Assembly (NCBI GenBank): GCA_012519425.1
Contig: JAAYQF010000052.1
Span: 1 to 44,812 of the forward strand
Length of the DNA: 44,812 nucleotides
Direction: 5' to 3'
Source: Bacteroidales bacterium
GTDB taxonomy: Bacteria > Bacteroidota > Bacteroidia > Bacteroidales > Paludibacteraceae
Shown here: positions 15,935 to 44,294 of the stretch, in pieces
Layout: every line of letters begins with the position of its first letter
How positions within the stretch are numbered: position 1 is the stretch's first letter
Made by a program: the position numbers and the translations under genes
The notes under the pieces: model-generated
Seen by the model: only the letters and a program-made list of their open reading frames with translations
Database searches by the model: none
Told to the model about the DNA's origin: nothing

Positions 15935-15984
15935 GTAGTTAGTAGTTTGTAGTTAGTAGTTAGTAGTTAGTAGTTGGTAGTTAA
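15935..15984 (-). repeat. Heptamer tandem repeat (TTAGTAG units), spacer block 1
   Basis: Six units of the 7-base type TTAGTAG, with variants TTTGTAG and TTGGTAG, fill 15939-15980 without a gap. They begin one base upstream of the AraC start codon. The same unit opens the larger composite blocks at 25074, 32969 and 36066. Confidence 0.9.
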
Positions 15985-15988
15985 GACG

Positions 15989-15996
15989 CAAATTTA
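15989..15996 (-). promoter_or_regulatory. Possible -7 element for the AraC gene
   Basis: The reverse strand reads TAAATTTG, a match to TANNTTTG, but no TTTG lies at the right distance. If used, transcription would begin near 15982 and the heptamer repeat would be the whole leader. Confidence 0.35.
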
Positions 15997-16039
15997 CACA
16001 AGAATTTTCAATTCGAATGAACAATTAAAGATTGCCAAC

Positions 16040-17446
16040 TTATTTTGCTTTACCTGAAGGATAATTAACAAGAAACACCCTATCTGTAGCCCTCGTCAAT
16101 GCTGTATAAAGCCATCTGTAATAATTCCGGTCAACGATTGCATCAGGCATCATGCCTGCATCAACGAAGACAGTTTTCCACTGTCCTCCCTGTGCCTTGT
16201 GACAGGTTACGGCATAGGCAAACTTAACCTGCAGAGCATTCAAATATTCATTTTCAAAAATTTGCTTGTATCGTTCTCTTTTATTGGTGATATCGGTATA
16301 ATCTTCCGATACTCTTTCAAACAGTGTACGACTCAATTGAGCTGTGTGCTGCGGAGATTCGGATTGCAGGCTTTCAAGCCATATGCGCGCATCAATTTCC
16401 CAACCGAAATCCAAAGAACGTAAACTCAAATCAACGAATCTGAAATCATACATTTCTCCAAACTTGCGGATTCTTACTACCTCCACTATATCACCATTGG
16501 CTATAAAATCAATGTCTTTATAAGGTTTACTCCAAAAATAATTATTGCGGGTAATCATCAGTAAATCCCCGTTAGATATCTCTTCTTCCCGCATCAGTAC
16601 GCGGTTACGAATTCCATTGTTGTAGACATTGGCACGTTTGTTCGAACGCGTTATTACAATAGTATCCTCCACCCCCACTCCATCATACGAACGGTGCACC
16701 TCTTCCACAAGATCCATCCCGTTCAATATTTTAATATCCGGAAAATCTGTTGTTTTTAAATCAGGTAAAGTGTCAGTTGAAGCTTCCTCCAATGCCTTCC
16801 TAAGTAGGGTTGCATTAAACAAAACACCACTCTCAAATGCTTGACGAACCACTTGAGTCAATATAAATTCCGTAACTTTCAAACCATGACTCTCCAACTT
16901 ATCCCTATCAAGTGCCGGACTCACCTCTTGCATGACCGGTGGCAACTGTGCGGTATCGCCCAACAACAGCAGACTGCAGCCCACGCCTTGATACACAAAC
17001 CGAATCAAGTCATCCAACAGATATCCCGAACCAAATTCCGGGTCATTGCCTGAGTTTGAAATCATGGAAGCCTCATCAACGATAAAAAGGGTTTGCTTGT
17101 ACAGATTGTCAGCCAGCTGAAAAACCGGTTCCCCTATGGACTTCTGACGGTATATTTTTTTATGGACGGTAAAAGCCGGAAAGCCCGCATAGCCGCTCAA
17201 TACCTTAGCAGCCCGACCTGTTGGTGCCAGCAGAATAGTTTTTTGTTGCAATTGATGCAGGGAACGCACCAAAGCACTCACGACGGAAGTCTTTCCGGTT
17301 CCGGCATACCCTTTCAGTAAAAACACCTTATTGTCGGAGATATCCGTTAAAAAATCACCCAACAACCGGATCAGCTCACCTTGTTGTTCGGTTGGTTCAA
17401 AAGGGAAAGACTGAATAACAGTATCGTATAAATAATTTTTGAGCAT
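16040..17446 (-). CDS. RecD-like ATP-dependent DNA helicase
   Basis: A 468-residue superfamily 1 helicase of the compact RecD-like type found across Bacteroidales. The Walker A motif is GYAGTGKTS near residue 48; LFIVDEASM is Walker B (motif II); LLLGDTAQLPPV is motif III. The C-terminal UvrD-like part has KFAYAVTCHKAQGGQW and the late ALTRATDRVFLVNY. I start at the ATG at 17446; a TTG 9 bases upstream is also in frame. A TATTTTTG match to the -7 element (17453-17460, reverse strand) lies just before the ATG, which would give a nearly leaderless message. A role in DNA repair or replication is likely. There is no recB or recC nearby. Confidence 0.88.
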   Translation of the reverse strand: MLKNYLYDTVIQSFPFEPTEQQGELIRLLGDFLTDISDNKVFLLKGYAGTGKTSVVSALVRSLHQLQQKTILLAPTGRAAKVLSGYAGFPAFTVHKKIYRQKSIGEPVFQLADNLYKQTLFIVDEASMISNSGNDPEFGSGYLLDDLIRFVYQGVGCSLLLLGDTAQLPPVMQEVSPALDRDKLESHGLKVTEFILTQVVRQAFESGVLFNATLLRKALEEASTDTLPDLKTTDFPDIKILNGMDLVEEVHRSYDGVGVEDTIVITRSNKRANVYNNGIRNRVLMREEEISNGDLLMITRNNYFWSKPYKDIDFIANGDIVEVVRIRKFGEMYDFRFVDLSLRSLDFGWEIDARIWLESLQSESPQHTAQLSRTLFERVSEDYTDITNKRERYKQIFENEYLNALQVKFAYAVTCHKAQGGQWKTVFVDAGMMPDAIVDRNYYRWLYTALTRATDRVFLVNYPSGKAK

Positions 17447-17508
17447 ACGGTGCAAAAATACGTGATTTTTTTGAATTGCGAGGAGCCGTTATTTGGGGGA
17501 CAAATGAG

Positions 17509-17540
17509 TTTGGTTTACCAATTATTTTTTTTTAACTTTG
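17509..17540 (+). promoter_or_regulatory. Bacteroidetes-type promoter for kduI-kduD
   Basis: TTTG at 17509-17512 and TAACTTTG at 17533-17540 are 20 bases apart, a full match to the -33/-7 pattern. Transcription would begin near 17547, leaving a leader of about 88 bases before kduI. Confidence 0.8.
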
Positions 17541-17634
17541 CAATCGCTTGAAATTTTTCAGGGAAACTCTTTGGCATCGAAAAGCGTGTAAGTTCCCCAA
17601 TATCCCGGCAAATAATCATAAATAAATATAAAAC

Positions 17635-18477
17635 ATGAAAACAAATTATGAACTGCGTTACTCAGCGCATCCCGAAGACGCGAAAAAGTATGATACTCAA
17701 CGTTTACGTAAAGATTTTTTAATTGAAACCCTTTTCGCACAAGACGAGGTGAATATGGTATATTCCATGTACGACCGTATGGTTGTTGGTGGCGCCATGC
17801 CTGTAAAAGAATCCCTGAAATTAGAGGCGATTGATCCCTTAAAACAACCAATTTTTCTTCGTAGGCGTGAATTGGGTATTTATAACGTAGGCGGTAGTGG
17901 AAAAGTAAAAGTAGGAGATTCTGTTTTTGAACTCGGTTATAAAGAAGCATTGTATTTAGGCTCAGGCGACAGAGAAGTATATTTTGAAAGCAACGATTCC
18001 GCAAAGCCTGCGAAATTTTATTTCAATTCAGCTACCGCACACAGAAATTATCCCGATAAGAAAATAACCAAAAAGGATGCTATTGTTGCCGAAATGGGCT
18101 CTTTAGAATCATCTAATCACAGAAATATCAATAAAATGATTGTTAATCAGGTTTTACCTACGTGTCAACTACAAATGGGTATGACAGAGCTTGCTCCCGG
18201 AAGCGTTTGGAACACTATGCCTCCACACGTTCACTCCAGAAGAATGGAAGCATATTTTTATTTTGAAGTGCCCGAAGATCAAGCTATTTGTCATTTCATG
18301 GGAGAAATGCAGGAAACACGTCATATCTGGATGCACAACAATCAGGCTGTTTTGTCACCCGAATGGTCTATTCATGCTGCTGCCGGCACATCAAACTACA
18401 CCTTTATTTGGGGTATGGCAGGAGAAAACTTAGACTATGGTGATCAGGATTTTTCAAAAATAACAGAGATAAGATAA
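17635..18477 (+). CDS. kduI: 5-dehydro-4-deoxy-D-glucuronate isomerase
   Basis: KduI turns 5-keto-4-deoxyuronate, released from unsaturated uronides by polysaccharide lyases and hydrolases, into 2,5-diketo-3-deoxygluconate. The 280-residue length is normal for this cupin-fold zinc enzyme. The zinc site is visible as [19 protein letters not shown] (around residues 196-215) with two His and a Glu, and a further His lies in WSIHAAAGT near the end. The N-terminus [18 protein letters not shown] is typical. kduD follows after 18 bases, so both steps come from one transcript. A consensus promoter precedes the pair. Identity is clear. Confidence 0.96.
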
Positions 18478-18495
18478 CATAAAAAAACAGAAGAA

Positions 18496-19287
18496 ATGGT
18501 AAACTTCAGATTAGATGGAAAAGTTGCTCTGGTAACAGGAGCCTCATACGGAATTGGTTTTGCGATGGCTAAAGCACTTGCAGATGCGGGTGCAACCATT
18601 GTTTTTAACGATATTAATCAAGAAATTGTTGACAGAGGCCTGGACAGTTATAAACAAGCGGGGATTCAAGCCCACGGATATGTATGTGATGTTACCGATG
18701 AAGATGCCGTAAACCGCTTCGTTAAGCAAGTCACTGAAAAGATAGGCGTAATTGATATTTTGGTAAATAACGCCGGAATAATCAAACGTATTCCCATGCA
18801 TGAAATGACGGCCGCTGAATTCAGACAGGTTATTGATATTGATTTGAACGGACCGTTTATTGTTTCGAAAGCAGTAATTCCACACATGATTAAAAAAGGT
18901 CACGGCAAAATCATCAATATTTGCTCTATGATGAGCGAATTAGGACGTGAAACAGTATCAGCTTACGCCGCAGCCAAAGGCGGATTGAAAATGCTAACCA
19001 GAAATATTTGTTCGGAGTACGGTGAACACAATATTCAGTGCAATGGTATCGGACCCGGCTATATCGCTACCCCACAGACCGCACCATTGCGCGAACGTCA
19101 AGCTGATGGCTCACGTCATCCATTCGATTCGTTTATTGTCGCAAAAACTCCTGCAGCTCGCTGGGGAACACCCGAGGATTTAATGGGACCGGTAGTTTTT
19201 CTAGCTTCGGATGCCTCAAATTTTGTAAACGGACACATCTTATATGTGGATGGCGGCATTTTAGCCTATATCGGAAAACAACCCTGA
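18496..19287 (+). CDS. kduD: Short-chain dehydrogenase KduD (2-dehydro-3-deoxy-gluconate / gluconate 5-dehydrogenase type)
   Basis: A 263-residue short-chain dehydrogenase that in this position should reduce 2,5-diketo-3-deoxygluconate to 2-keto-3-deoxygluconate with NAD(P)H. The cofactor motif TGASYGIG is at residues 15-22. NNAG follows at about 91, and the catalytic YAAAK motif is near 156-160 with Ser upstream in ICSMMSE. The C-terminus VNGHILYVDGGILAYIG fits the gluconate 5-dehydrogenase/KduD branch. Pairing with kduI makes the uronate role much more likely than gluconate oxidation. A hairpin with a T run lies 5 bases after the stop. The later enzymes of the route (KdgK, KdgA) are not in the window. 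Confidence 0.9.
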   Translation: MVNFRLDGKVALVTGASYGIGFAMAKALADAGATIVFNDINQEIVDRGLDSYKQAGIQAHGYVCDVTDEDAVNRFVKQVTEKIGVIDILVNNAGIIKRIPMHEMTAAEFRQVIDIDLNGPFIVSKAVIPHMIKKGHGKIINICSMMSELGRETVSAYAAAKGGLKMLTRNICSEYGEHNIQCNGIGPGYIATPQTAPLRERQADGSRHPFDSFIVAKTPAARWGTPEDLMGPVVFLASDASNFVNGHILYVDGGILAYIGKQP

Positions 19288-19291
19288 TAAT

Positions 19292-19338
19292 ATGGTGATT
19301 TAAGCTACAAGATGTAGCCATCAAATTACCATGTTTTT
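19292..19338 (+). terminator. Probable terminator after kduD
   Basis: Nested inverted repeats, an outer arm near-complementary between 19292-19301 and 19323-19332 and an inner GCTAC/GTAGC pair (19304-19308, 19314-19318), are followed by a run of five T. The stem has bulges, so its strength is uncertain. Confidence 0.5.
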
Positions 19339-19398
19339 AAAAAATATTAAAAAATAGCTTTTTTAAAAAACATACATCCTCCATTCCCTGCAAAGTAC

Positions 19399-19406
19399 TA
19401 TATTTG
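19399..19406 (+). promoter_or_regulatory. Possible -7 element for the DUF4861-like gene
   Basis: TATATTTG matches TANNTTTG, but there is no clear TTTG 19-21 bases upstream, as is common for activator-dependent promoters. A start near 19413 would leave a leader of about 139 bases in which nothing else is recognised. Confidence 0.4.
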
Positions 19407-19551
19407 CGGGGAATGTTCTTCCCTTAAATTTTTTATCGCACTCTTTCATTATCTTCTTAATTTAGGTTCAGTGACTTAAAAAATTTTAGGTGGGGAAATC
19501 GTTTTAAATTATATCATAATTATCCTGTAGTATTCATTAAAAATTCATGAC

Positions 19552-20676
19552 ATGAAGAAAAGAAAAATCAGCTTCATTGCCTTATTTGCTGTAATCACAA
19601 GTTTTAGTTTTGCTCAAACTGTCGAAGTCATCAATCAATATCCATTTGACAGAGAAAATGAAATCATTGAAATTGATGCTTCCGAATTCAACACTACACT
19701 AAATACGAATTTAGTAATCACGGATCAAAACAACCAGGAAGTTCCTTATCAGTTGATTTACAACGGCAATGAGTCTGTACAATCCATTATTTTTCCGGTA
19801 ACGGTAAAAACCGGCACCAAAGAAATCTATACATTCAGCAAGGGAACTCCAAAACCTGTTCAAGCTAAAACATTCGCCCGTTTTGTTCCTGAACGAAAGG
19901 ATGACTTTGCATGGGAGAACGATCTGGCAGCTTATCGTGTTTTCGGACCGGGACTAGCCAATGAAAACCCTTCCAACGGCATTGATCTATGGCTGAAGAA
20001 AACTGAAGATTTGATTATTGACAGCTTTTACAAAGCTGATCTTCAGGAAGGAAAATCTTATCACGATGACCACGGACAAGGCGTAGATTGCTACAAGGTT
20101 GATCACACATTAGGAGCAGGTGGTGTTGCACCTTACGTTAATGGCGAATTGTTAATCGGTAGTTATTTCGACACCTACAAGGTATTGGAAAATGGCCCGT
20201 TACGTTCAACATTTACCATTACATACGAAGATGTAATAATCAATAGCGAATTATATCAGCAACAAGTTACCATCAGCATAGATGCGGGCACATTAATGAA
20301 CAAAGCTGTTGTTAAGTTAGAAGGTAAAGAGCAAGAAATTAAATTAGCTCCGGGAATATTTTTACACAATGGAAAAGGCACTTTGCAAAAATCTTCCGGA
20401 TTGATCATTTATGGAGAAGATGCGATTACCCAAACAGACCAAACCAATGTTGGAAAAAGTTATGTGGGCGTTATCGTACCGGGCGACAGCGAATACAAGA
20501 TTCAGAAAATGCATGCATTGTTGATAAGTGATTACAAAGTTGGAGAAGAGTTCACCTACTACTTTGGCGGTGGATGGAGCCAATGGAAATTTCCGACTCA
20601 AAAAGAGTGGTTGGCTGCAGTACAAGATTTCTCAAAACAAATTAGATATCCGCTAAGCATCACGGTGGTAAATTAA
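19552..20676 (+). CDS. DUF4861-like secreted protein
   Basis: A 374-residue exported protein with a signal peptide (residues 1-21, ending FSFAQ). It looks like the DUF4861 family, found in polysaccharide utilisation loci for uronic-acid-containing glycans. Marks include VEVINQYPFDRENEIIEI at the start, AYRVFGPGLANENPSNGIDLW in the middle, and YHDDHGQGVDCYKVDHTLGAGG, a His/Asp-rich loop that may be a ligand or catalytic site. The end FTYYFGGGWSQW is also family-like. It lies 264 bases behind kduD on the same strand and fits a step before KduI, such as trimming or debranching an oligouronide. No enzyme activity can be assigned. Its stop overlaps the convergent esterase stop by 4 bases. Confidence 0.7.
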   Translation: MKKRKISFIALFAVITSFSFAQTVEVINQYPFDRENEIIEIDASEFNTTLNTNLVITDQNNQEVPYQLIYNGNESVQSIIFPVTVKTGTKEIYTFSKGTPKPVQAKTFARFVPERKDDFAWENDLAAYRVFGPGLANENPSNGIDLWLKKTEDLIIDSFYKADLQEGKSYHDDHGQGVDCYKVDHTLGAGGVAPYVNGELLIGSYFDTYKVLENGPLRSTFTITYEDVIINSELYQQQVTISIDAGTLMNKAVVKLEGKEQEIKLAPGIFLHNGKGTLQKSSGLIIYGEDAITQTDQTNVGKSYVGVIVPGDSEYKIQKMHALLISDYKVGEEFTYYFGGGWSQWKFPTQKEWLAAVQDFSKQIRYPLSITVVN

Positions 20677-21596
20677 TCCAGGTTGTAATAATACTTCGCA
20701 GATTGGTTGTATTTTGATTCCTGATTGGGATCGAAATAGTTAATATCTATCATCAACGGCTTTTTATCGAAAACATAATCCCGGATAAACCGGAGTACTT
20801 CCGGCTGAAATTTTTCTATCGGATACGATGCTACGTCGTGTCCGATGTTTTCCATGCTATAAAAAAGATACGGAAAGCTTCTAGCTTTAAAACGCTTGGC
20901 TAAAGGCTTAGAACCAAACATTCCCAAATTTAAAAACCTGATTTGACGGTAAGGAACGAGTTTATCGGCACTTCCGTGGAAAAAAAGCGTAGGAGCAGGA
21001 GCCATGGCGTAATCAGGCAATCCTTCCCTGCTAAAAATAGCTCCGGCAAAAGAAATGACACCCGCATACTGAAATCCGGCAGACAGAATAGTATCCGAAG
21101 GCATTCCATTACGGTGTTCGTAATCTGCATGCAACACCGTAATTGCTCCGGCACTTGATCCGCTTATGATGACTTTGGAAGTGTCAATCAGCAGTTTATC
21201 AGCATTTTTTATCAGATAATCAGTGGCTGTGTACAAATCCTCTACTGCTAAACCAATAGCTCTACGAAGTGGCTTTTGATTAAAAACACCCGGGGCTTTC
21301 TCATTTTTTAGTCCCAGTCGGTAATCAATGGCAACTACCGTAAAGCCATTTTCTGCAAAATACCTGAAATAATCAAGATAACTTTCCTGGTCTCTCGTTC
21401 CTCCCTTGAAGCCACCGCCAAACACAAACAGCAAAACGGATTGACAGGTACCATCGCTATTACTTTTGTAAATATCAAGTTGTAGAGAGACATCCTCCCT
21501 TTCAGCAAATGTATGCGTTGTTTTCTCTATATCGGCAGGAAAAGCCGAAAAGATCAATGAGAAAAGAATAGTCAGTGAAAAAAGTTTTTTGTACAT
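20673..21596 (-). CDS. Secreted alpha/beta hydrolase (carboxylesterase-like)
   Basis: A 307-residue serine hydrolase with a signal peptide (MYKKLFSLTILFSLIFSAFP). I chose the ATG at 21596; a start at 21626 would add ten residues in front of it. LLFVFGGGFKGG near residue 60 is the oxyanion-hole segment of the esterase/lipase (HSL-like) group. The nucleophile elbow is GSSAG, with Ser near residue 145. LFFHGSADKLVPY holds the acid region, and the final His is in ENIGHDVAS. Its place beside the uronate genes suggests it removes acetyl or other esters from a plant polysaccharide, but that is inference. It points toward the DUF4861-like gene and shares its last bases. Confidence 0.82.
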   Translation of the reverse strand: MYKKLFSLTILFSLIFSAFPADIEKTTHTFAEREDVSLQLDIYKSNSDGTCQSVLLFVFGGGFKGGTRDQESYLDYFRYFAENGFTVVAIDYRLGLKNEKAPGVFNQKPLRRAIGLAVEDLYTATDYLIKNADKLLIDTSKVIISGSSAGAITVLHADYEHRNGMPSDTILSAGFQYAGVISFAGAIFSREGLPDYAMAPAPTLFFHGSADKLVPYRQIRFLNLGMFGSKPLAKRFKARSFPYLFYSMENIGHDVASYPIEKFQPEVLRFIRDYVFDKKPLMIDINYFDPNQESKYNQSAKYYYNLD

Positions 21597-21626
21597 AAGA
21601 TATCTGATAAAATTATTGCACCGCAA

Positions 21627-21908
21627 AATTAAGAATATAAATTCGATTTGTGCTTAAAAAAAACTAAAAGAACCGTGAACCGGAATTCGCGGTTTCCGTG
21701 TTCTGTAACCACGAGGTTACGAAATAGTTTCTCACAAATTCACGCAGATCACAATCAACCTCGTTTTTGGTAAGTCAAAAAACAATTAAGATTGGTGCAG
21801 AGAATTTCCCTTGTTTGAGCAACGAAGTGCGAGTTTGGACAATTTAGCCATTTAAACACCAATTTTTCATGCGAAGTAAACGTAGTCTTGGTTTTTTTGC
21901 TTCATTTT
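21627..21908. other. Gene-free spacer with short inverted repeats
   Basis: No coding frame is supported here. A perfect hairpin GTAACC-ACGA-GGTTAC lies at about 21706-21721, after an imperfect inverted repeat around 21673-21703. The right part (about 21815-21900) resembles anonymous dispersed sequence seen between genes in Bacteroidetes, but no second copy is in this window. Confidence 0.5.
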
Positions 21909-21939
21909 TTTGCTATTTAAAAACATTGCTATACCTTTG
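21909..21939 (+). promoter_or_regulatory. Bacteroidetes-type promoter for the PadR-like gene
   Basis: TTTG at 21909-21912 and TACCTTTG at 21932-21939 with 19 bases between them match the consensus fully. Transcription would begin near 21946, with a leader of about 26 bases. Confidence 0.85.
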
Positions 21940-21971
21940 TTTTGCGCTTCTTGATTTAGACTGTTTGATAT

Positions 21972-22337
21972 ATGAAGAGAGAAAAAAAATTAAAAGAACT
22001 TCTAAATTCCTGGGAAGAGACTTATAAAAAGGGGCAACTTACTTTATGGATTTTTTTGGCTTTGCAAGAGGATAAAATGTATGTGGATGAGATCAGGGAT
22101 TTCGTCATTACAAAATCAAATGGCACAATCACTTGCGAAGAGCAAAGCCTGTACAGAGCGTTGCGTAAATATGAACAAATCGACGTATTAGACTATGAAC
22201 TGAGAAAAGGAAACAAAGGACCGGACAGAAAATATTATTTTATGACCGACCTTGGACAAGAACTTTTTTTGGAATTTGTAAAACGTAACATTAAACTTTT
22301 TTATTCAGAAGAAATCAAGAAACTTTTAAATCTCTAA
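21972..22337 (+). CDS. PadR-family transcriptional regulator
   Basis: A 121-residue winged-helix protein. The pattern YKKGQLTLWIFLALQEDKMYVDEIRDFV, then LYRALRKYEQIDVLDYEL, a wing with GNKGPDRKYYFMTDLG, and a C-terminal helix (FLEFVKRNIKLFYSEE) is that of PadR regulators. These repress small operons, often for transporters or membrane proteins, and frequently control their own gene. A strong promoter lies before it. A small membrane protein gene follows after only 5 bases, so the two form one operon. The inducer is unknown. The family call is good although the first 18 residues are not part of the usual domain. Confidence 0.82.
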   Translation: MKREKKLKELLNSWEETYKKGQLTLWIFLALQEDKMYVDEIRDFVITKSNGTITCEEQSLYRALRKYEQIDVLDYELRKGNKGPDRKYYFMTDLGQELFLEFVKRNIKLFYSEEIKKLLNL

Positions 22338-22342
22338 AAATA

Positions 22343-22762
22343 ATGAAAACAATTTCACCAAATTTATTGAAATTTGCCGGTACAGCACTCCTTTTGACGA
22401 TTATTTTCAGATTTTTTCTTTCCCATGGAATTGACAAAGACTCGATGTCAATCGTTATATTAAGTGCCTTTTTATATGGTTTGGCTATGTTTTTTTCCGG
22501 ATGGTATTTCGGAAAAAAAGACAGGGAGTACTTACCTTTTTATGACGTCGGCTTTCGTTTTCACCTGGCTACCTATTTATCACACAATTTAATTTCGGAA
22601 TTATGGTTTGTATTTGGTTTCAATTCTGAATCGGAAAAAATTAGCATCATTCACATAACTGCATTAATTTGGGGCATTATTCTTTTCTTTCACTTTTTGT
22701 TCTTTTTGTGGACAAGGAAAGATGCAATCAATGATTTAGATAAAGATGATTTATTTGAATAA
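22343..22762 (+). CDS. Small integral membrane protein, unknown function
   Basis: A 139-residue protein I do not recognise. It has about four hydrophobic segments: residues 8-27, 35-55 (MSIVILSAFLYGLAMFFSGW), about 72-95, and 103-122 (IHITALIWGIILFFHFLFFL). The C-terminus is acidic (DLDKDDLFE). It follows the PadR-like gene after 5 bases and is followed by a strong terminator, so it is the second and last gene of that operon. Pairs of PadR regulator and small membrane protein are common, with the membrane protein as the regulated target. Nothing in the sequence shows a transport or catalytic site. Confidence 0.75.
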   Translation: MKTISPNLLKFAGTALLLTIIFRFFLSHGIDKDSMSIVILSAFLYGLAMFFSGWYFGKKDREYLPFYDVGFRFHLATYLSHNLISELWFVFGFNSESEKISIIHITALIWGIILFFHFLFFLWTRKDAINDLDKDDLFE

Positions 22763-22780
22763 TTAAATTAATAACGCATT

Positions 22781-22821
22781 AAAAAAGAGCTGCCTCTATT
22801 TTTTGGGACAGCTCTTTTTTT
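22781..22821. terminator. Bidirectional Rho-independent terminator
   Basis: AAAAAAGAGCTG (22781-22792) pairs perfectly with CAGCTCTTTTTT (22809-22820). With an A run on one side and a T run on the other, it can end both the PadR operon (+) and the biotin carrier transcript (-). Confidence 0.88.
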
Positions 22822-22874
22822 AATTTATACAGTTTATGGAGTATACTCTCAATTCTTCAAAAAAACATTCTTCC

Positions 22875-23231
22875 TTAATTTACATTTTTTTCATCATCAT
22901 CATCATCAGCCGCTTCTAATTCAATCATCAACATATCTTTAGGAATCTTATCTCCTACATTTACATTGATTTTTTTGATTTTTGCGGTGAACGGCATTTG
23001 AATGTGATTCATCATCTTCATTGCTTCCAAAACGAGCAAGGGTTCACCCTCCTGCACCACTTCTCCTTCTTTTACAGAAACCTCAATAATGGTCCCGGGA
23101 ATAAGAGATTGAACCTCATAGGGATTAGGATCTACCCACGGTTTTCTTTGCTTATATTTAGCAGTCAGCTTGGTTTTATATTTTCTTGCAGTTACAGCAA
23201 AATCCACCAAGTCTTTATTTTTTTTCGCCAT
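22875..23231 (-). CDS. Biotin carboxyl carrier protein of an acyl-CoA carboxylase/decarboxylase
   Basis: A 118-residue protein whose C-terminal half is a biotinyl domain. The biotin attachment site is EAMKM with Lys72, in LLVLEAMKMMNHIQMPF, and IPGTIIEVSVKEGEVVQEGEP is the usual first half of the domain. The N-terminal 35 residues are basic and the last dozen acidic (ADDDDDE). It carries the carboxyl group for the carboxyltransferase coded upstream on the same strand. The gap of 252 bases between the two is unusually long for partner subunits and contains a roughly 120-base repeat element. No biotin carboxylase or membrane decarboxylase subunit is near. Confidence 0.92.
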   Translation of the reverse strand: MAKKNKDLVDFAVTARKYKTKLTAKYKQRKPWVDPNPYEVQSLIPGTIIEVSVKEGEVVQEGEPLLVLEAMKMMNHIQMPFTAKIKKINVNVGDKIPKDMLMIELEAADDDDDEKNVN

Positions 23232-23345
23232 AATAATCTACTTAATCTACTTTGAATTTTTATTTCCTTTTATAAGAGTTCCTTTTGAAAAGATTACAAT
23301 TCGGAACTCTCAAACAATCAAGAGGCTGTCTCAAAACGAATATTC

Positions 23346-23482: not shown

Positions 23483-23483
23483 A

Positions 23484-25073: not shown

Positions 25074-25294
25074 TGTAGTTAGTAGTTAGTTTTGGAAAAA
25101 GTTAAAGAAGTTAGAGAAGTTAGAGAAGTTAGAGAAGTTAGACATTCAACAATTCAACAACTAAACAATTAAACAATTAAACAATTAAACGATTAAACAG
25201 TTCAACAAACATTAAACATTAAACACTAAACATTAAACAACTTGTCTTTGCTCTTTGCCCCTTGTTCTTCTTCGTCCATCACTCTTCGTTCTTC
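25074..25294 (-). repeat. Composite short-tandem-repeat spacer, block 2
   Basis: Read on the given strand, the block holds unit TAGTTAG (25074-25091), a 9-base unit AGAAGTTAG (25094-25142), 8-base units AACAATTA/AACAATTC (25143-25209), 7-base CATTAAA/CACTAAA (25206-25240), and CTCTTTG-like units (25241-25294). The last part abuts the stop codon of the transglycosylase gene. It contains the 15-mer TCACTCTTCGTTCTT, which also occurs in block 3. Confidence 0.9.
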
Positions 25295-28533: not shown

Positions 28534-28551
28534 AACACCTTATTTGGCGTG

Positions 28552-28584: not shown

Positions 28585-28717
28585 AAAGGTAAAATTATAA
28601 CCCGTGGGCAGGGTCAGGCAGTAAGTGCAATATTACTTTATTAGAAAGCCATTATCCTGCCTCTTCATTTAAAAGACAGGGTTCAAAACAGCATTCAGAG
28701 AGGCTTGTCAAATGAAC

Positions 28718-30367
28718 TCAAATAATTTCTATCCCCTCTTTCTCACAAATCTCCAACGCCATCTCCCTCAATCTGAATTTTTGAATTTTACCGCTACCGG
28801 TAAGAGGAAATTCTTTCACAGTGAACACATAGCGCGGTATTTTGAAGCGGGAAATTTGGTCTTTACAGAAATCCCGCACATCTTCAGTGGTGAAATGAAA
28901 GCCTTCTTTTGGAATGATGAATGCACCCACATCTTCTCCATAACGCGGAGATTTTACCGCCACCACTTGTACATCCTGAACTCCGGGCATAGTATACAGG
29001 AAGTCTTCCACTTCTTTTGGAGATATATTTTCTCCACCACGTATAATCATGTCTTTGATACGACCGGTGATTCGATAATTTCCGTTTTCATCCCTTACAC
29101 CTAAATCTCCGGAATGTAACCAACCGTCTTTGTCTATGACCTGCGCTGTAGCTTCAGGGTTTTTATAATAACCTTTCATCACCAAATAACCACGGCAACA
29201 CACTTCACCTTCAACACCATCCGGGCACTCCTCACCGGTTTCAGGATTTTTCACCATCACTTCCGTAAATTCATAAGGACGGCCAACGGTGGTGGTACGT
29301 ACTTCAAAACTGTCATCTATGCGGGTTTGTGTCATACCGGGAGAAGACTCTGTCAGACCATACACACTGGTTATGTCCATAAACATTTTTTCATTGACCT
29401 GCTTCATCAACTCAGCCGGGCATAAGGAGCCTGCCATAATACCGGTACGTAAAGAGCTCATATCGAACATCTCAAACATAGGATGATTCAACTCGGCAAT
29501 AAACATGGTCGGAACTCCGTACAGAGCAGTACATCGCTCCTTGTGAACGGATGCCAGGGTAACGAGCGGATCAAACTTTTCCACCATCACTTGCGTGCAG
29601 CCATGAGTCAGACAATTCATGGTTGCCAAAACCACTCCAAAGCAGTGAAACAGGGGTACGCAAATACACAATTTGTCGTTTTGCGTGAAATTCATGTGCT
29701 CACCGGTAAGGTAACCATTATTGGCGATGTTGTGGTGAGAAAGCATCACTCCTTTGGGAAACCCTGTGGTTCCGGAGGTATATTGCATATTCACAACATC
29801 GTGGCATTGAACAGCAGATTTTACCTTTTGCAGTTCTTCGTCACTTTTCGAATTTCCCAACAACAGCAACTCGGCAGTATTGTACATACCACGATATTTT
29901 TCCTGACCGATATACACGACATTTTTAAGTTCGGGAAATTTTTCACTATGTAAATGTCCGCGTGCCTGCGTTTTTAATTCCGGGATTAATCCGTAAATCA
30001 TATCCAAATAATTGTATCCCGCGGCTCCATCAGTCAGACAAAGCGTGTGCATATCAGAGTTTTCCATCACAAACGCCAATTCATGCTGTTTGTAATTGGT
30101 GTTAACAGTAACTGCCACTGCTCCTATCCTTGCACAAGCGTATAAGAAAGTCAGCCAATCAGGTACATTCTGTGCCCAAATACCTACATTTGAGCCTTTC
30201 CGAACACCAATAGCCAACAAGCCCTTTGACATATGGTCAACACGAGCATTAAATTCCTTCCACGTAAAACGTAAATCACGGTCGGAATACACTATATATT
30301 CTTTATCAGGAGTCTCTTTTGCCCAATGCTCAAGCCAATCGCCCAAAGTGAGATCGTATAACTGCAT
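28718..30367 (-). CDS. AMP-binding acyl-CoA synthetase
   Basis: A 549-residue ANL-superfamily enzyme that activates a carboxylic acid, most likely a medium- or long-chain fatty acid, to its CoA thioester through an acyl-AMP. Motif A3 is [13 protein letters not shown] near residue 195. Further on are [10 protein letters not shown] (A5), GWLHSGDLG (A7), [20 protein letters not shown] (A8) and the catalytic Lys in [11 protein letters not shown] (A10). All are intact. The N-terminus [19 protein letters not shown] is typical of the FadD-like branch in anaerobes. The XRE-cupin regulator gene lies 103 bases upstream on the same strand, a pairing that suggests the regulator controls this synthetase. 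The exact substrate is not readable. Confidence 0.92.
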
Positions 30368-30470
30368 AATCTGGTTGCTAAATGGTTACTTTTTAAATTT
30401 CACAATCTTTATAAATCTTTCAACTGAGTTCAGGAAATCATATTTTTAAAATCTGTGATCTTTATGAACT

Positions 30471-31052
30471 TTATAAAGGTGTATAAACTACTGCTAATAT
30501 CCTGGCGGGTTCACGTCCATTGGATGTTACCAGGTGTTCAACTATGGAATCATAGTAAATACTTTCACCCGCATGCACAACGTAAACATCTTGACCATAA
30601 TTGATCTTGATGCTTCCTTCAAGCACATAAATAAACTCTTCGCCTTCGTGAGATGATAAAACGGGTTTTTGGTTCCGGTCGGTTGTTACGGTAATTAAGA
30701 ACGGCTCCATTGCCCTACCTGATTTTTTGGATGCCAGGGCTGTGAAGTCCAAATGTGAGTTAGCTGAGGATAACTGACTGGAAAATGTTACAGGATCTAT
30801 GTTTTCCGTTTTCCTATATACAACGGGACCCAGTGCAGTTGAATCATCCAGGAAAGTCCCCAAACGCACCCCTAAAGCACGTGCAATCTTGATGAGTGGA
30901 GCTAAAGAAGGAATATTGTCGCTATCTAATATGATTTGAATTTGCTCCTTTTTTAAACCCGAAAGTTCGGCCAATCCCTCTAACGAGATATTTTTATCCG
31001 TACACAGTGTAGTGATTTTTTTACCAATAATGTTGTTGCTCATATGAATCAA
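30471..31052 (-). CDS. XRE-family regulator with C-terminal cupin
   Basis: A 193-residue regulator with an N-terminal helix-turn-helix of the XRE type (residues about 8-65: ITTLCTDKNISLEGLAELSG, then IARALGVRLGTFL) and a C-terminal cupin_2 domain (about 115-190: VLSSHEGEEFIYVLEGSIKI, VVHAGESIYYDSIVEHLV). This combination usually senses a small ligand in the cupin pocket. The gene is divergent from mutY, with a possible -7 element on the reverse strand at 31117-31124. It is followed by the acyl-CoA synthetase gene after 103 bases, so a fatty acid or acyl-CoA is a reasonable but unproven ligand. Confidence 0.9.
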   Translation of the reverse strand: MIHMSNNIIGKKITTLCTDKNISLEGLAELSGLKKEQIQIILDSDNIPSLAPLIKIARALGVRLGTFLDDSTALGPVVYRKTENIDPVTFSSQLSSANSHLDFTALASKKSGRAMEPFLITVTTDRNQKPVLSSHEGEEFIYVLEGSIKINYGQDVYVVHAGESIYYDSIVEHLVTSNGREPARILAVVYTPL

Positions 31053-31116
31053 TTTCTTTGGATGTTAATGTTATGTATAATTATACAAAATGTTTGCTGT
31101 CGCTGCATTTCGGCTG

Positions 31117-31151
31117 CAAAACTAATATTATTTTTGCAATAGAAAAACAAA
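31117..31151 (-). promoter_or_regulatory. Possible promoter for the XRE-cupin gene
   Basis: The reverse strand reads TAGTTTTG (31117-31124) with a TTTG at 31148-31151, but the spacing is 23 bases, longer than usual. It overlaps the mutY promoter, so the two divergent promoters may compete. Confidence 0.4.
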
Positions 31152-31163
31152 TAATTACTTTTG
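31133..31163 (+). promoter_or_regulatory. Bacteroidetes-type promoter for mutY
   Basis: TTTG (31133-31136) and TACTTTTG (31156-31163) with 19 bases between them. Transcription would begin near 31170, only about 5 bases before the ATG at 31175. This shows that upstream in-frame starts are not used. Confidence 0.82.
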
Positions 31164-31174
31164 CACGTACAAAA

Positions 31175-32230
31175 ATGCCCCTCTCATCAACACTCATACA
31201 ATGGTATCAAACCTACAAGCGCGATTTGCCTTGGCGGGATATCGTTGATCCTTATAAAATCTGGATTTCGGAAATTATCCTGCAGCAAACGCGCGTCAAT
31301 CAAGGATTGGATTATTACCACAGATTTATTGAGCGATTTCCTGACGTAACCAGTTTAGCAACCGCTTCTGAAGATGAAGTTTTAAAGTATTGGCAGGGAT
31401 TGGGTTATTATTCACGAGCAAGAAACCTGCACAAAGCTGCACGTCAAATAGTAAGCGAGCATGATGGATTGTTTCCCAATACTTATAAAGAAGTCATACA
31501 ACTCGCCGGCATAGGAGAATATACCGCTGCCGCCATTTGTTCTTTTGCGTATAATTTACCTTTTGCGGTAGTGGACGGCAATGTCTTTCGGGTGCTTTCA
31601 AGATTGTTCGGTGTGGACACACCCATCGACTCTACGGCTGGAAAGAAAATATTCAAACAACTGGCACAAGAAATTTTGGACAAAACTCAACCGGGCTTAC
31701 ACAACCAGGCCATCATGGAATTTGGTGCTTTACAATGCGTGCCTGTTTCACCTGCGTGCGATGAATGTCCTTTAGCCGACAAATGCATAGCCTATTCCGA
31801 CAATCAGGTATCGGCATTACCGGTAAAGCGTCAAAAAATACAAACCAAGGAGCGGTTTTTCAATTATCTGTTTATCAAATCCGGCAATCAAACCTGGCTG
31901 CAAAAACGAACACAAAATGACATTTGGAAAAATTTGTTTGAGTTCCCTCTGATTGAGGATGAGAAGTTGTTGGACAAAAATGAATTAATCCAACACGATT
32001 ATTTTAAAATGCTGTTTTCAGACATTCAATCCGACATACACATCCGGTCTGTAAGTCCTCCCATCAAACACATCCTGACTCATCAAAAGATTTTTGCCCA
32101 ATGTGTGCTTATAGAAATTAATGCAAAAAGTAAAAAATGGGAGCAATTCGTACAAATCCAAATCGACGAATTGGGGAATTATGCCGTTTCAAGACTGATG
32201 GAGATACTGCTCCAAAATCATTTGGGATAG
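31175..32230 (+). CDS. mutY: A/G-specific adenine DNA glycosylase
   Basis: MutY removes adenine wrongly paired with 8-oxoguanine. The chosen start, ATG 31175, gives 351 residues and begins MPLSSTLIQWYQTYKRDLPWR, the normal family N-terminus. A longer frame from 31058 lies across the promoter. The catalytic Glu is in SEIILQQTRV (near residue 35) and the catalytic Asp is in VVDGNVFRVLSR (near 135). The helix-hairpin-helix is LAGIGEYTAAAI. The [4Fe-4S] cluster cysteines follow the standard C-x6-C-x2-C-x5-C (CVPVSPACDECPLADKC). The C-terminal part is a NUDIX-like 8-oxoG recognition domain. Its last 42 bases overlap the convergent DUF2520 gene. Confidence 0.95.
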   Translation: MPLSSTLIQWYQTYKRDLPWRDIVDPYKIWISEIILQQTRVNQGLDYYHRFIERFPDVTSLATASEDEVLKYWQGLGYYSRARNLHKAARQIVSEHDGLFPNTYKEVIQLAGIGEYTAAAICSFAYNLPFAVVDGNVFRVLSRLFGVDTPIDSTAGKKIFKQLAQEILDKTQPGLHNQAIMEFGALQCVPVSPACDECPLADKCIAYSDNQVSALPVKRQKIQTKERFFNYLFIKSGNQTWLQKRTQNDIWKNLFEFPLIEDEKLLDKNELIQHDYFKMLFSDIQSDIHIRSVSPPIKHILTHQKIFAQCVLIEINAKSKKWEQFVQIQIDELGNYAVSRLMEILLQNHLG

Positions 32231-32962
32231 TTCTCTGTATAAATTCTGAAGCTTAGGCTGATCTTTCAGCATTTCCATATGTTGTTTCATGATTTTTTGG
32301 TCATTACGCTTAGCCGGACCGGTTTGTGCCTCCGCGGGAGAAAGATGACTGATTTTCTCTATCGTTTCTTTTATCAAGGGCTTCAGCAAGTTAAAATCAA
32401 TGTCGGAAGACTCCATGATATCGGAAGCAATATGAAACAAATGATTTACAAAGTTATTGGCAAAAACTGCTGCAAGATGTATTTTCAGACGTTGCTCGGT
32501 ATTGTAATGATGTACCTGCCCTGAAATCTCCTTAGCCAAGACATCCAAAGCCTGTTTGACTACCTCATCCGATGCTTCCAACAACAAAGGAACCTGCTGA
32601 AAATCTACGGTTTTATCTTTCGAAAGACTTTGCAAAGGGTATAAAACTCCATAATGTTTTTTATAGCCTTTGAAAATATCCATGGCAACACTTCCTGCGG
32701 TATGCACATGCATGGCTTGAGGTGCAATATTCAATGAAACTAAGGACTCCAAAGCATCATCACTGACGGCATAAATATACAAATCAGCATCCTGCATAAT
32801 CTCATCCACAAGATGAGTATATGGCACGCCCAAGCGATTGCCCAAAGCAGCAGCAGAAGCTTTTGTCCTGCTGTAAACTTGCACAATCTGATGTCCGGTT
32901 TTATGAATGGCAAGCGCTAAATGCGTAGCAACATTCCCTGAGCCGTGAAGAAGGATGTTCAT
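32189..32962 (-). CDS. Rossmann-fold DUF2520 protein
   Basis: A 257-residue protein with an N-terminal NADP-binding Rossmann domain (LLHGSGNVATHLALAIHKTG, residues 4-23) and a C-terminal helical DUF2520 domain. The latter holds RLKIHLAAVFANNFVNHLF near 160 and LSPAEAQTGPAKRNDQ near 210, both strong family marks. The architecture resembles ketopantoate and pyrroline-5-carboxylate reductases, but the reaction is unknown. It is the last of a co-directional series behind phoH, from which composite repeat block 3 separates it. Its end overlaps mutY by 42 bases in convergent orientation, so both proteins use the same DNA. Confidence 0.85.
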   Translation of the reverse strand: MNILLHGSGNVATHLALAIHKTGHQIVQVYSRTKASAAALGNRLGVPYTHLVDEIMQDADLYIYAVSDDALESLVSLNIAPQAMHVHTAGSVAMDIFKGYKKHYGVLYPLQSLSKDKTVDFQQVPLLLEASDEVVKQALDVLAKEISGQVHHYNTEQRLKIHLAAVFANNFVNHLFHIASDIMESSDIDFNLLKPLIKETIEKISHLSPAEAQTGPAKRNDQKIMKQHMEMLKDQPKLQNLYRELSQMILEQYLHQS

Positions 32963-32968
32963 TTTATA

Positions 32969-33238
32969 TTAGTAGTTAGTAGTTGGTAGTTGGTAGTTGG
33001 TAATTAGGAAGTTATAGAAGTTATAGAAGTTATAGAAGTTATAGAAGTTAGGGAAGTTAGAATATTAAACCACAAAAGGCATAAAAGAAAATTCACCATT
33101 CACCATTCACAGTTCAACAATTCAACAATTAAACACTACACATTAAACATTACACACTAAACATTCAACAATTTGTCTTTATTCTTTTGTCTTTGCTCTT
33201 TGTTCTTAGTTATTCACTCTTCGTTCTTAGTTTCTCAC
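32969..33238 (-). repeat. Composite short-tandem-repeat spacer, block 3
   Basis: In the given direction the units are TTAGTAG/TTGGTAG (32969-33005), 9-base AGAAGTTAT (33006-33060), AATATTAAACCACAAAAGGC (33061-33080) with a short tail, ATTCACC (33091-33111), AACAATTC/AACAATTA (33112-33135), ACATTAAAC/ACACTAAAC (33135-33170), and CTCTTTG/TTCTTAG-like (33171-33238). The block starts 7 bases before the DUF2520 start codon and runs into the last codons of phoH. Confidence 0.9.
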
Positions 33239-34169
33239 TCCTCTCATACGCCTCCACAATCCTTTGTACCAATTTATGACGCACTATATCCGATTTGTCA
33301 AAATCAACGCGTGACACACCCTCCACATTTTTTAAAACCGACATTGCATCAATTAAACCCGACTTCTGAGTAGTGGGCAAGTCAATTTGCGTAATATCGC
33401 CCGTCACTATCATCTTTGTATTCAGCCCCATACGGGTTAGAAACATTTTAAGCTGCAAACGGGTGGTGTTTTGTGCTTCATCTAAAATAACCACGGCATC
33501 CGTAAGCGTACGTCCACGCATAAAAGCCAGTGGTGCGATCTGAATGGTGCCGTTTTCCAGATACTCCCTGAGTTTGAGCGGGGTAATCATATCTTGCAAA
33601 GCATCATACAGAGGCTGTAGATAGGGATCAATTTTTTCCTTCATATCTCCCGGCAGAAAACCAAGCTTCTCCCCTGCCTCAACCGCAGGTCTACTTAATA
33701 TTATCTTCCTGATAGCCTTACTCTTTAAAGCCTTAACAGCTAAAGCAATGGCAGTGTAGGTCTTTCCTGTCCCGGCGGGACCAATGGCAAAAACCAGATC
33801 ATTAAGTTCAAATTCCCTGACCAATCGTTGCTGATTAGGTGTTCGGGCCAGGATAGATTTACCTCTTAAACCATGTAAAATCAAGTTGGAGTTTTTAGTG
33901 GTTTCTACGGGTTCTTCCCCTTTAATAATCTGAATAACAGATTCTTCACTCAAAGTATTATTTTCAACACAGAATTTTTCCATGTTCTTCAAATGCTGCA
34001 TCACCAAATTTACATTTTCCTCATCCCCCTCAACTTTAATGGCATGACCGCGTCCAACTATCCTAACTTGCGGAAACAGATTTTTCAACAAATAAAGGTT
34101 AGCGTTATTCACACCAAAAAAAACAATAATATCGGTATGTGTAGAAAGTTCGTATATTCGTTCGAGCAT
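33210..34169 (-). CDS. PhoH family ATPase
   Basis: A 319-residue PhoH/PhoL-type protein, a cytosolic P-loop ATPase thought to act in RNA metabolism and stress. An N-terminal nucleic-acid-binding part (about residues 1-75, with KH-like features such as FPQVRIVGRGHAIKVEGDEENV) precedes the ATPase. Walker A is AIGPAGTGKTYTAIA near residue 135 and Walker B is VVILDEAQNTT. IVTGDITQIDLP lies after it. All are intact. The last residues SEKLRTKSE are encoded by DNA that is part of the repeat block downstream, so the C-terminus may have been changed by repeat growth. glyA lies 22 bases upstream on the same strand. Confidence 0.94.
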   Translation of the reverse strand: MLERIYELSTHTDIIVFFGVNNANLYLLKNLFPQVRIVGRGHAIKVEGDEENVNLVMQHLKNMEKFCVENNTLSEESVIQIIKGEEPVETTKNSNLILHGLRGKSILARTPNQQRLVREFELNDLVFAIGPAGTGKTYTAIALAVKALKSKAIRKIILSRPAVEAGEKLGFLPGDMKEKIDPYLQPLYDALQDMITPLKLREYLENGTIQIAPLAFMRGRTLTDAVVILDEAQNTTRLQLKMFLTRMGLNTKMIVTGDITQIDLPTTQKSGLIDAMSVLKNVEGVSRVDFDKSDIVRHKLVQRIVEAYERSEKLRTKSE

Positions 34170-34191
34170 ATTTGAGTGAGTAAGTTAGGGT

Positions 34192-35472
34192 TTAATATGC
34201 GAATAAAGGATATTGGACCATGGTTTCGTTGACTTTTTTCTTTACGGAATCTATTACTTTCTTATCATCTTTGTTTGTTAGCACGGTTTCAATCATTTCA
34301 GCAATTTCATACATCAAATCTTCCTTGGCACCACGCGTAGTGATTGCCGGTGTTCCCAAGCGAATTCCTGAAGTTTGAAAAGCAGAGCGGTCATCAAAAG
34401 GCACCATATTCTTGTTGCAGGTTATATTAGCATCAACAAGCACCTGTTCAGCTTCCCTGCCGGTAAGTTCAGGATATTTTGGACGCAGATCAACCAACAT
34501 AGAGTGATTGTCAGTACCTCCGGAAACAATGGTAAATCCTCTCTTAATCAGGGCATCAGCGAGCGTCTTAGCATTCTTCTTTACTTGACTTTGATACACC
34601 TTATATTCAGGTTGAAGGCATTCTCCGAACGCCACAGCTTTAGCAGCAATTACGTGCTGTAAAGGTCCGCCCTGAACTCCGGGGAACACCGCTGAATCAA
34701 GTAATTCAGACATCATTCTTATCTCTCCGCCGTTCTTAGTTTTTCCCCAGGGATTTGGAAAATCTTTTCCAATCAGGATAATACCTCCCCGTGGACCACG
34801 TAATGTTTTGTGGGTTGTAGAAGTGACGACATGTGCATATTTCAACGGATTATCCAACAATCCTGCAGCTATCAAGCCGGCAGGATGTGCCATATCAACC
34901 ATCAATATTGCTTTTACTTTATCGGCTATCTCACGCATGCGCTTGTAGTCCCATTCACGCGAATAAGCCGATCCTCCGCCAATGATCAATTTAGGCTGTT
35001 CGCGAAGAGCAATTTCTTCCATCTCATCATAATCAACCAAACCATTATCTTGTCTGACATTATATGCAACAGGCTGATACAGAATCCCTGAGCTATTCAC
35101 CAATGAACCATGCGACAAATGTCCGCCATGGGCCAAGTTTAAACCCATAAATTTATCACCGGGATTCAAACAAGCCAGAAAAACAGCTGCATTGGCTTGT
35201 GCGCCGGAGTGCGGCTGCACATTGGCCCATTCAGCACCGAATACCTCCTTAATGCGATCGATGGCGATTTGTTCCGATTGATCAACAATCTCACAACCAC
35301 CGTAATATCTTCTCCCGGGATATCCCTCTGCATATTTGTTAGTCAACACCGACCCCATGGCTTCCATGACCTGGTCACTGACAAAATTTTCAGATGCAAT
35401 CAACTCAATACCTTTCATCTGACGTTTCTTCTCACGGTCGATGATATCAAAAATTAAACGGTCTCTTTTCAT
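34192..35472 (-). CDS. glyA: Serine hydroxymethyltransferase
   Basis: GlyA converts serine and tetrahydrofolate to glycine and 5,10-methylene-tetrahydrofolate using pyridoxal phosphate. The 426-residue length is standard. The cofactor lysine is in [15 protein letters not shown] near residue 230. [14 protein letters not shown] and [14 protein letters not shown] are further family motifs, and the N-terminus has [15 protein letters not shown]. It sits between pyrI (100 bases upstream) and phoH (22 bases downstream), all on the reverse strand. In the 100-base gap I see no promoter consensus; just before the ATG there are two copies of a 7-base AAGAAAC unit on the reverse strand. Confidence 0.97.
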
Positions 35473-35572
35473 GTTTTGTTTCTTGTTTCTTGTTGCGGCT
35501 ACCAGACAGATAAATGCAGGATTAAAACAAACAACATCCCACTATCATCCCTTGCCCATAACACTTTGTTTA

Positions 35573-36034
35573 TTATTTCTTTTTTAAATTAATCTCGTCT
35601 TGTAAAACTTCTTTTGTACAGTACTTACACTTCAACCTGACAATGCCGTCTTCATTTATCACGACAAACTTAGTAGGAATCGGTTGATGGTTTGTAATGC
35701 ACATGGGATTGGCACAATGCATCACATCATGAATTTCATCACCCAACAGCAATGCACGTTTTTCAACTACTTTGTAATCCCTGATAATATTGATACTGGC
35801 ATTGGGGGCTACCAATGCAATTTTACTGGTCTCTTCGTCAGATAAAATCCGATTAGAGATCTTAATAATCCCTTTTCTACCCATCCTTTTGCTATCCAAA
35901 TTATTGCCTATGGTCAAGAGTTGACCGTAAACCTTCAGTCGCAAAATAGACACAATTTTAAACACCTTTTCAGTCGGAATGTGATCTATCACTGTTCCGT
36001 TTTTTAATGCTGCTACTTTCAGTTCTTTTTCCAT
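35573..36034 (-). CDS. pyrI: Aspartate carbamoyltransferase regulatory subunit
   Basis: PyrI joins PyrB in the allosteric aspartate transcarbamoylase and binds CTP, UTP and ATP, the end products that adjust pyrimidine synthesis. It has 153 residues, as usual. The nucleotide-binding part includes TVIDHIPTEKVFKIVSILRL near the start. The zinc site that holds PyrB has four cysteines in the normal spacing: C-x4-C in CANPMCI and C-x2-C in KCKYC near the C-terminus. PyrI genes normally follow pyrB directly; here 286 bases of composite repeat lie between them. The CTP that it senses is made by the variant PyrG in this same window. Confidence 0.96.
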   Translation of the reverse strand: MEKELKVAALKNGTVIDHIPTEKVFKIVSILRLKVYGQLLTIGNNLDSKRMGRKGIIKISNRILSDEETSKIALVAPNASINIIRDYKVVEKRALLLGDEIHDVMHCANPMCITNHQPIPTKFVVINEDGIVRLKCKYCTKEVLQDEINLKKK

Positions 36035-36051
36035 AATTGTTTGATGTTGGG

Positions 36052-36327
36052 AAGTTATTGAAGTTAAGTAGTTAGTAGTTGGTAGTTAGTAGTTGTTTTG
36101 AAGTTAATGAAGTTATAGGAAGTTAGGGAAGTTAGAATATTAAACCACAAAAGGCACAAAAGAAATTTCACCACTCACTATTCACCATCCACCAGTCACC
36201 AAACACTAAACACCAATCACTAAATCGTCTTTTTTCTTTGCTCTTTGCTCTTTGCTCTTTGTTCTCAGTTAAACAGTTCAACAATTAAACAATTCAACAT
36301 TACACACTACACACTACACATTAAACA
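36052..36327 (-). repeat. Composite short-tandem-repeat spacer, block 4
   Basis: Units in the given direction are GAAGTTA (36050-36066), TTAGTAG/TTGGTAG (36066-36096), GAAGTTA(T) (36100-36135), TTAAACCACAAAAGGC (36140-36155) with a tail, TTCACCA/CACTCAC (36166-36199), AAACACTAAACACC (36200-36224), CTCTTTG (36225-36269), AACAATTA/AACAATTC (36270-36298) and ACACTAC/ACATTAAAC (36299-36327). The pyrB stop codon (36321-36323) lies inside the last unit. The order is as in block 3 except that the CTCTTTG units come earlier. Confidence 0.9.
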
Positions 36328-44280: not shown

Positions 44281-44294
44281 AAATTATAAATGTA

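Follow-up and report, generated by a model that had tools for sequence, protein, structure and literature searches.

Ordered blocks of 7-9 base tandem repeats in the spacers of a Paludibacteraceae genome probably evolve in concert

Heptanucleotide arrays are found in the intergenic spacers of cyanobacteria as short tandemly repeated repetitive (STRR) sequences; to our knowledge, no fixed composite order has been described in them. Repetitive extragenic palindromic elements and their associated tyrosine transposases (REP/RAYT) form another class of dispersed, short, intergenic repeats, located near 3′ gene ends. We analysed the spacer repeats of a 44,812-nucleotide stretch of DNA, hereafter the window (contig JAAYQF010000052.1 of assembly GCA_012519425.1, from a Bacteroidales bacterium of the Paludibacteraceae), together with the genome that holds it (G000; 2,392,937 bases, 142 contigs, 94.7% complete). 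The G000 blocks have heptamer spacer arrays in common with STRR sequences, and show in addition a fixed composite order. They are probably copies of one dispersed composite intergenic repeat, built of satellite-like units of 7-9 bases, that undergoes concerted evolution through copying between blocks together with slippage.

MacGregor (2015, PMC4679880) describes TAACTGA heptamers as intergenic direct repeats in Beggiatoaceae, Cyanobacteria and five Bacteroidetes, with many sets per genome and a patchy distribution between relatives. In some Bacteroidetes, TAACTGA is mixed there with other heptamers and is absent from the closest relative's spacer. The most-studied Beggiatoaceae genome has one dominant heptamer that lies mostly forward before start codons, with other patterns elsewhere, and a transcript role (RNA leader, tail or ribosome-binding region) was proposed for copies upstream of start codons. 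The G000 blocks are alike in being 7-base intergenic direct repeats, in occurring in many sets and in being patchy among relatives. They differ in that nine or more unit types follow one order, orientation is near random, the blocks lie next to 3′ gene ends and their contents look rewritten between near relatives. No perfect TAACTGA dimer was found in our samples of G000 and of its sister genome G005 (Bacteroidetes bacterium ADurb.Bin174, whose record is 100% identical to G005 over 2451 bases), and TAACTAC dimers numbered 48 and 2, respectively. The Beggiatoaceae pattern of forward repeats before starts was not seen in either genome (sense to antisense 30:17 and 14:17), and 3′ ends were abutted more than 5′ ends. 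Among long simple sequence repeats (LSSR) of 5-11 bases, heptanucleotides are the most abundant and slippage has been proposed (Mrazek et al. 2007, as summarised in PMC4679880); the heptamer class is the same, but the order and module swaps in G000 exceed slippage alone. With tandem units of about 7 bases located in spacers, the G000 blocks are heptamer intergenic tandem repeats of the STRR/LSSR kind. Heptamer repeats as such are already known from cyanobacteria, Beggiatoaceae and some Bacteroidetes. New within the literature searched are the composite order, the vocabularies that differ inside one genus and the rewriting at fixed sites; the search yielded no description of a fixed composite order or of heptamer blocks evolving in concert, which is a weak negative because most subscription papers lay beyond it.

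We assigned the letters A-H and K to the repeat units and read them along the direction of the window genes: A is TAACTAC (TTAGTAG in the initial annotation), B is TAACTTC plus two (9 bases), C is the non-tandem, single-copy core TTTCTTTTGTGCCTTTTGTGGTTTAAAATTC (31 bases), D is GGTGAAT, E is GAATTGTT (8 bases), F is TTTAATG, G is CAAAGAG, H is GAACGAT, and K, which is absent from the window, is CGGAACT. A cyclic hidden Markov model (HMM) of these units was used to decode both strands, with reversed units as decoys, in 946,664 bases of G000 (~40% of the genome; 61 stretches, window included) and 506,678 bases of G005. In G000, 291 real unit runs against 8 decoy runs formed 72 blocks; in G005, 140 against 2 formed 50 blocks. 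One decoy run above threshold lay inside the window itself (35476-35494). GAAGTTANRGAAGTTA occurred in 203 copies in the G000 genome, with 0 for the reversed control, and chance does not account for the blocks. Windows of lag-7 identity numbered 99 per 10 kb of G000 spacer, whereas called genes gave 0.1 and shuffled spacers 0; the unshuffled spacers gave 14 at lag 8 and 50 at lag 9. Repeat bases within called genes amounted to 517 of 10304 in G000 and 589 of 5298 in G005.

The order of units along the blocks, F E G H K D C B A, was fixed only after the transition matrix had been seen. Of 206 same-strand neighbour steps in G000, 160 were forward, 42 backward and 4 between the same unit (our sums), and 208 of 219 adjacent runs lay on one strand. 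Three recurring pairs, A>B (19), H>G (10) and G>F (9), made up 38 of the 42 backward steps, as is expected if module stretches are duplicated. Single pairs were directional, with forward to backward counts of 15:0 for F>E, 14:2 for E>G, 10:0 for H>K, 18:1 for K>B, 8:0 for D>C and 9:0 for C>B, besides 39 B>A steps; the corresponding counts in G005 were 22:0 for K>B and 18:1 for H>K. Two alternatives occur in the middle of the order, either CGGAACT (K) or GGTGAAT (D) plus the CTTTTGTGG core, followed by TAACTTC (B) and TAACTAC (A). Multi-module stretches of 90-132 bases were 90-93% alike at unrelated loci away from contig ends, the likeness lying within the repeat blocks; single loci split in two and contig-end matches had been set aside. 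The fixed module order proposed for the window by the initial annotation thus holds in sampled G000 and in the sister genome. Its view that random slippage alone is insufficient is borne out as well, since an order kept at dozens of loci, together with a module swap, favours copying of units between loci.

This swap was seen when G000 was compared with G005 at orthologous sites, defined by protein matches of at least 60% identity (median 93%). Among 83 orthologous adjacent gene pairs, 73 had no block in either genome, 7 had one in both, 2 in G005 only and 1 in G000 only; at one G005-only pair, G000 has a 19-base run just below the cut. The main orientation agreed at all 7 shared sites, and several of them keep their first and last bases while the interior differs. 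At L051:5853, G000 reads H-G-H-A-B-A and G005 reads H-K-B-A-B. Unit number varies at the orthologous sites L064:11180 and 11626 when compared with L192. Three further sites in the ADurb.Bin174 record have the same place and the same main orientation as in G000. At one of these three, one genome carries K in the position taken by the D-C core in the other (L217:13539-13733 versus L090:729-983), a swap that slippage could not produce.

Block contents were then scored for blocks of at least 60 bases (n = 51), with 6 edge blocks dropped and two shared L064 sites excluded as under 60. At the eight sites scored, the orthologue was outscored by 29, 29, 2, 42, 2, 28, 34 and 13 of the 44 non-edge G000 blocks. 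Descent with slippage alone would make the orthologue the best match, and its being beaten therefore argues for copying between blocks. We infer that block contents were overwritten by such copying, for which recombination would be the simplest route. Within each unit, 4-5 positions are nearly invariant and 1-3 are polymorphic, and the spectrum is similar in both genomes; the final position of B, for example, has T at.47, C at.42 and A at.11 in G000 and G005 alike. A homogenised pool with a few old variants would look so, and the HMM thresholds also favour invariance. Separately, many adjacent 7-base units differ in two K-type arrays of G005 (L155:2301-2406 and L204:15469-15627), and the register is largely kept.

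The position of blocks relative to genes was counted for blocks with at least 40 repeat bases. In G000, blocks overlapped 23 of 53 flanking 3′ gene ends and came within 10 bases of 11 more; for the 58 flanking 5′ ends, the corresponding counts were 0 and 8. In G005, overlap was found at 14 of 33 3′ ends versus 2 of 38 5′ ends. If the blocks are copies of one repeat in concerted evolution, homologous recombination, by gene conversion or unequal exchange, would copy multi-module stretches from block to block, and order and strand would thereby be kept. Replication slippage would alter unit number, and block loss with occasional seeding at new sites would set the distribution. Selection may clear blocks from coding starts and promoters and so cause the pile-up at 3′ gene ends; selection against insertions in these places would suffice for the pattern. 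Each lineage would drift toward its own vocabulary, and no function of the block sequence itself would be required.

Several points weigh against this explanation. Gene conversion is here an inference from sequence comparison. For site L067, no alignment with the orthologue was obtained; only 2 paralogues score higher at two of the eight sites; choosing the best among 44 paralogues favours them over a single orthologue; and low-complexity arrays may mislead alignment scores. The invariant positions might reflect selection. The HMM units were picked by eye from G000's own spacers, genes were called with our own open reading frame script, and part of the G000 stretches was drawn from contigs with a known match, which biases block density upward. 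RVT_1, a reverse transcriptase family, had 5 matches in G005. Lastly, G000 shows a weak excess of sense over antisense blocks (30:17, p 0.079), which was larger in smaller samples (23:7 by simple word counts; 28:12, p 0.017, in the first 733 kb), and a mild sense bias may be present in this genome.

Direction bears on the proposal that the blocks act in the transcript, as an RNA leader, tail or ribosome-binding region. The initial annotation held that they always run the same way relative to transcription. This is true of the window (4 of 4 blocks sense) and fails in the larger sample: the 72 G000 blocks comprised 30 sense, 17 antisense, 9 convergent and 7 divergent blocks and 9 at a stretch edge, and those of G005 comprised 14, 17, 10, 6 and 3. 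A fixed direction rule was rejected, the sense excess having shrunk through the three successive G000 counts as the sample grew and being absent in G005. Direction tied to the contig was also rejected, and a tie to the replication strand looks less likely, because blocks on one contig (e.g. C40, C53) point both ways. Order is fixed, then, and direction is near random, where randomness of both had been named as the outcome that would bring the modular model down. With fixed direction gone, the leader or tail idea is unsupported: the modular observation holds, and the directional function does not. Several sense blocks do have A/B-type units within 10 bases of a start codon, which together with the window blocks and the weak sense excess favours a transcript role. 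Against it stand the antisense, convergent and divergent blocks and the G005 counts, the genus relatives examined at pyrB-pyrI, which are without G000's block there, and the folding results. For 42 blocks, the median fold z was +0.5 on the element strand and +1.1 on the other, with 3 and 2 blocks below -2, compared with -0.7 and -1.0 for 45 other spacers. An RNA-structure role accordingly found no support, blocks being slightly less structured than shuffles on both strands and Rfam giving no match in the window. We consider a transcript function very unlikely.

In the genus, TAACTTCYNTAACTTC was found in 203 copies in G000, 183 in G005, 25 in G034 and 0-2 in the remaining 45 of 48 genomes searched; the only place decoded in G034 (overlapping L079 and L085) consists of B units alone. 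A run of three A units occurred in 7 of 296 phylum genomes, with 137 occurrences in G000 and no more than 14 in any other; G005 and G034 do not appear in this draw. Reversed-pattern controls matched as well, TAACTTC with 1-3 matches in each of several genus genomes and TAACTAC with up to 20 in one phylum genome, and single matches are therefore meaningless. Seven-base periodicity recurs in the genus with differing vocabularies, a claim that rests on the lag-7 signal. Over a larger number of spacers, eight genomes (G000, G005, G026, G016, G015, G034, G028 and G024) gave 31-169 windows per 10 kb, runs of N being left out for G028 and G024; spacer samples were small for most relatives, including G034 (2.3 kb), G015 (2.7 kb) and G026 (3.3 kb). 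The 56 spacers taken from other families contained no lag-7 window, against 15 at lag 8 and 8 at lag 14. The other vocabularies were GGAGACT (G026), AGAGGCG and AAGCGGT (G024), AACTGAT (G016), AACGTCT (G028) and AAGATTG (G034). Perfect heptamer dimers were present in 18 of 36 genus samples, the remaining samples all having <1.3 kb of spacer, and 70 of 103 heptamer classes were confined to one genome. In one G028 spacer (L157:2109-2202), two TAACTAC-type arrays in opposite directions form a long imperfect inverted repeat.

The pyrB-pyrI spacer measures 286 bases in G000, against a median of 57 in 29 genus members (G000 included) and 19 in 19 genomes of other families. The lag-7 test was passed by 5 of the 29 genus spacers, G000's and two of 871-875 bases among them, and by none of the 19 others; the idea that each species has its own heptamers in this spacer was weakened, with only these 5 passing. 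The gap in this operon also takes up other sequence, as in L104, L099 and L109 (G063, G023 and G027; 442, 875 and 871 bases), the first with an apparent short open frame.

A non-autonomous mobile element, inserted as a whole composite block by a trans-acting transposase or recombinase and then decaying, would account for multi-module stretches this alike at unrelated loci, for near-random orientation, and for the 3 of 10 block-bearing orthologous pairs with a block in one genome only (2 if the 19-base run is counted). The block ends speak against it, since they vary, for example with F, E, G or H at the start and A or B at the finish, although only 3 pairs with a block in one genome were available for comparing ends; most sites, moreover, are common to G000 and G005. 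The Y1 transposase family (Y1_Tnp, PF01797) had no match in G000 or G005, and RVT_1 had none in G000, these being the only two families searched; Y1_Tnp was present in 31 of the 36 genomes searched, those two included. We regard insertion of such an element as unlikely. The blocks resemble REP/RAYT elements in dispersal, shortness and location in spacers at 3′ ends, and differ in lacking excess fold; assignment to that class was rejected, because neither genome had a Y1 transposase match and the median fold z does not indicate a palindromic hairpin unit. Y1_Tnp was also without a match in G020, G036 and G046, and G000 and G005 are block-rich genomes. A system that copies units, as suggested by the initial annotation, is supported in so far as the evidence favours copying between loci, whereas no dedicated system was found in G000 by the search for Y1_Tnp and RVT_1. 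A bolder version, in which bacteria of the genus carry a genome-wide library of ordered heptamer satellites, active and perhaps dedicated copying overwrites blocks at fixed sites and the whole vocabulary is replaced within a species' lifetime, strikes us as speculative and rather improbable.

Arrays grown independently in each spacer by local replication slippage would explain why unit number varies at the L064 and L192 sites. They would hardly give dozens of loci a common order of the same nine unit types, one of them a non-tandem 31-base core, and the exchange of K for D-C is unexpected from independent growth. Slippage as the sole process is highly improbable, and it is still likely to be part of the mechanism. 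An artefact of assembly or binning could be suspected in a metagenome genome of this many contigs, in which 6 of 51 blocks of at least 60 bases sit at the edge of a fetched stretch, in several cases where a contig ends. The window blocks are internal, however, and the vocabulary, the order and mostly the sites recur in the separate genome G005/ADurb.Bin174, so that an artefact is hardly credible.

Within the window, the four blocks of the initial annotation were found again (Table 1), and block 1 was decoded with its first unit type alone, as had been described. The unit types are as listed there, except that most tandem-repeat calls gave period 9 for AGAAGTTA and period 8 for AACAATT. Block 2 has the listed order, without the ACCACAAAAGG and ATTCACC units and with an extra terminal unit of GAACGAA type (25268-25294). 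In block 4, CTCTTTG has moved as described, and an unlisted AGAAGTTA run comes first (36049-36066), giving the plus-strand order B A B C D G E F. The fragment at 44256 does lie between plus-strand genes, and falls below the HMM threshold. Each of blocks 1-4 is flanked by two minus-strand genes, and the neighbours are ordinary: an AraC-type regulator, a helicase-like ATPase, a carboxyl transferase, a lytic transglycosylase-like protein, a DUF2520 protein, a PhoH-like protein, pyrI and pyrB. The coding 3′ end of the upstream gene is overlapped by block 3 (33210-33228) and block 4 (36321-36328). In the PhoH-like protein, relatives agree up to about IVEAYE, after which the tail RSEKLRTKSE follows; by eye, the tail DNA resembles H (GAAC-type) units. 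The PhoH-like C-terminus in G028 (L122) is encoded by another heptamer, AAACGAC, which makes two vocabularies at one gene end.

Table 1. Repeat features of the window (positions on the given strand; unit order in sense direction).
Feature	Positions	Strand	Order or content	Unit runs	Context
Block 1	15935-15983	-	one A run		spacer 15935-16039 between minus-strand genes
Block 2	25075-25294	-	H-G-F-E-B-A	A 25075-25090, B 25096-25144, E 25145-25206, F 25207-25238, G 25244-25267, H 25268-25294	
Block 3	32969-33228	-	G-F-E-D-C-B-A	A 32969-33007, B 33008-33059, C core 33060-33090, D 33091-33108, E 33109-33127, F 33128-33170, G 33171-33228	
PhoH-like gene end	33210-33242	-	last ten codons and stop	HMM run spans 33210-33228	
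Block 4	36049-36328	-	F-E-G-D-C-B-A-B	B 36049-36066, A 36067-36095, B 36096-36134, C core 36135-36165, D 36166-36223, G 36224-36265, E 36266-36296, F 36297-36328	within pyrB-pyrI pair
Weak GGTGAAT-type fragment	44256-44281	+	two short tandem pairs		between two plus-strand genes

The usual view of bacterial spacers is one of evolution by descent. In G000, non-coding blocks whose sites are mostly fixed seem to have been overwritten with sequence from other parts of their own genome, and the vocabularies of other genus members are different. This, if borne out, would provide a bacterial model for the concerted evolution of satellite DNA and would help explain the patchiness of heptamers between relatives. 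It would also advise caution in reading heptamer spacers as regulatory leaders, and strain typing or phylogeny from such spacers would mislead. Should a library with dedicated copying prove true, it would be a bacterial counterpart of the satellite-library turnover of eukaryotes.

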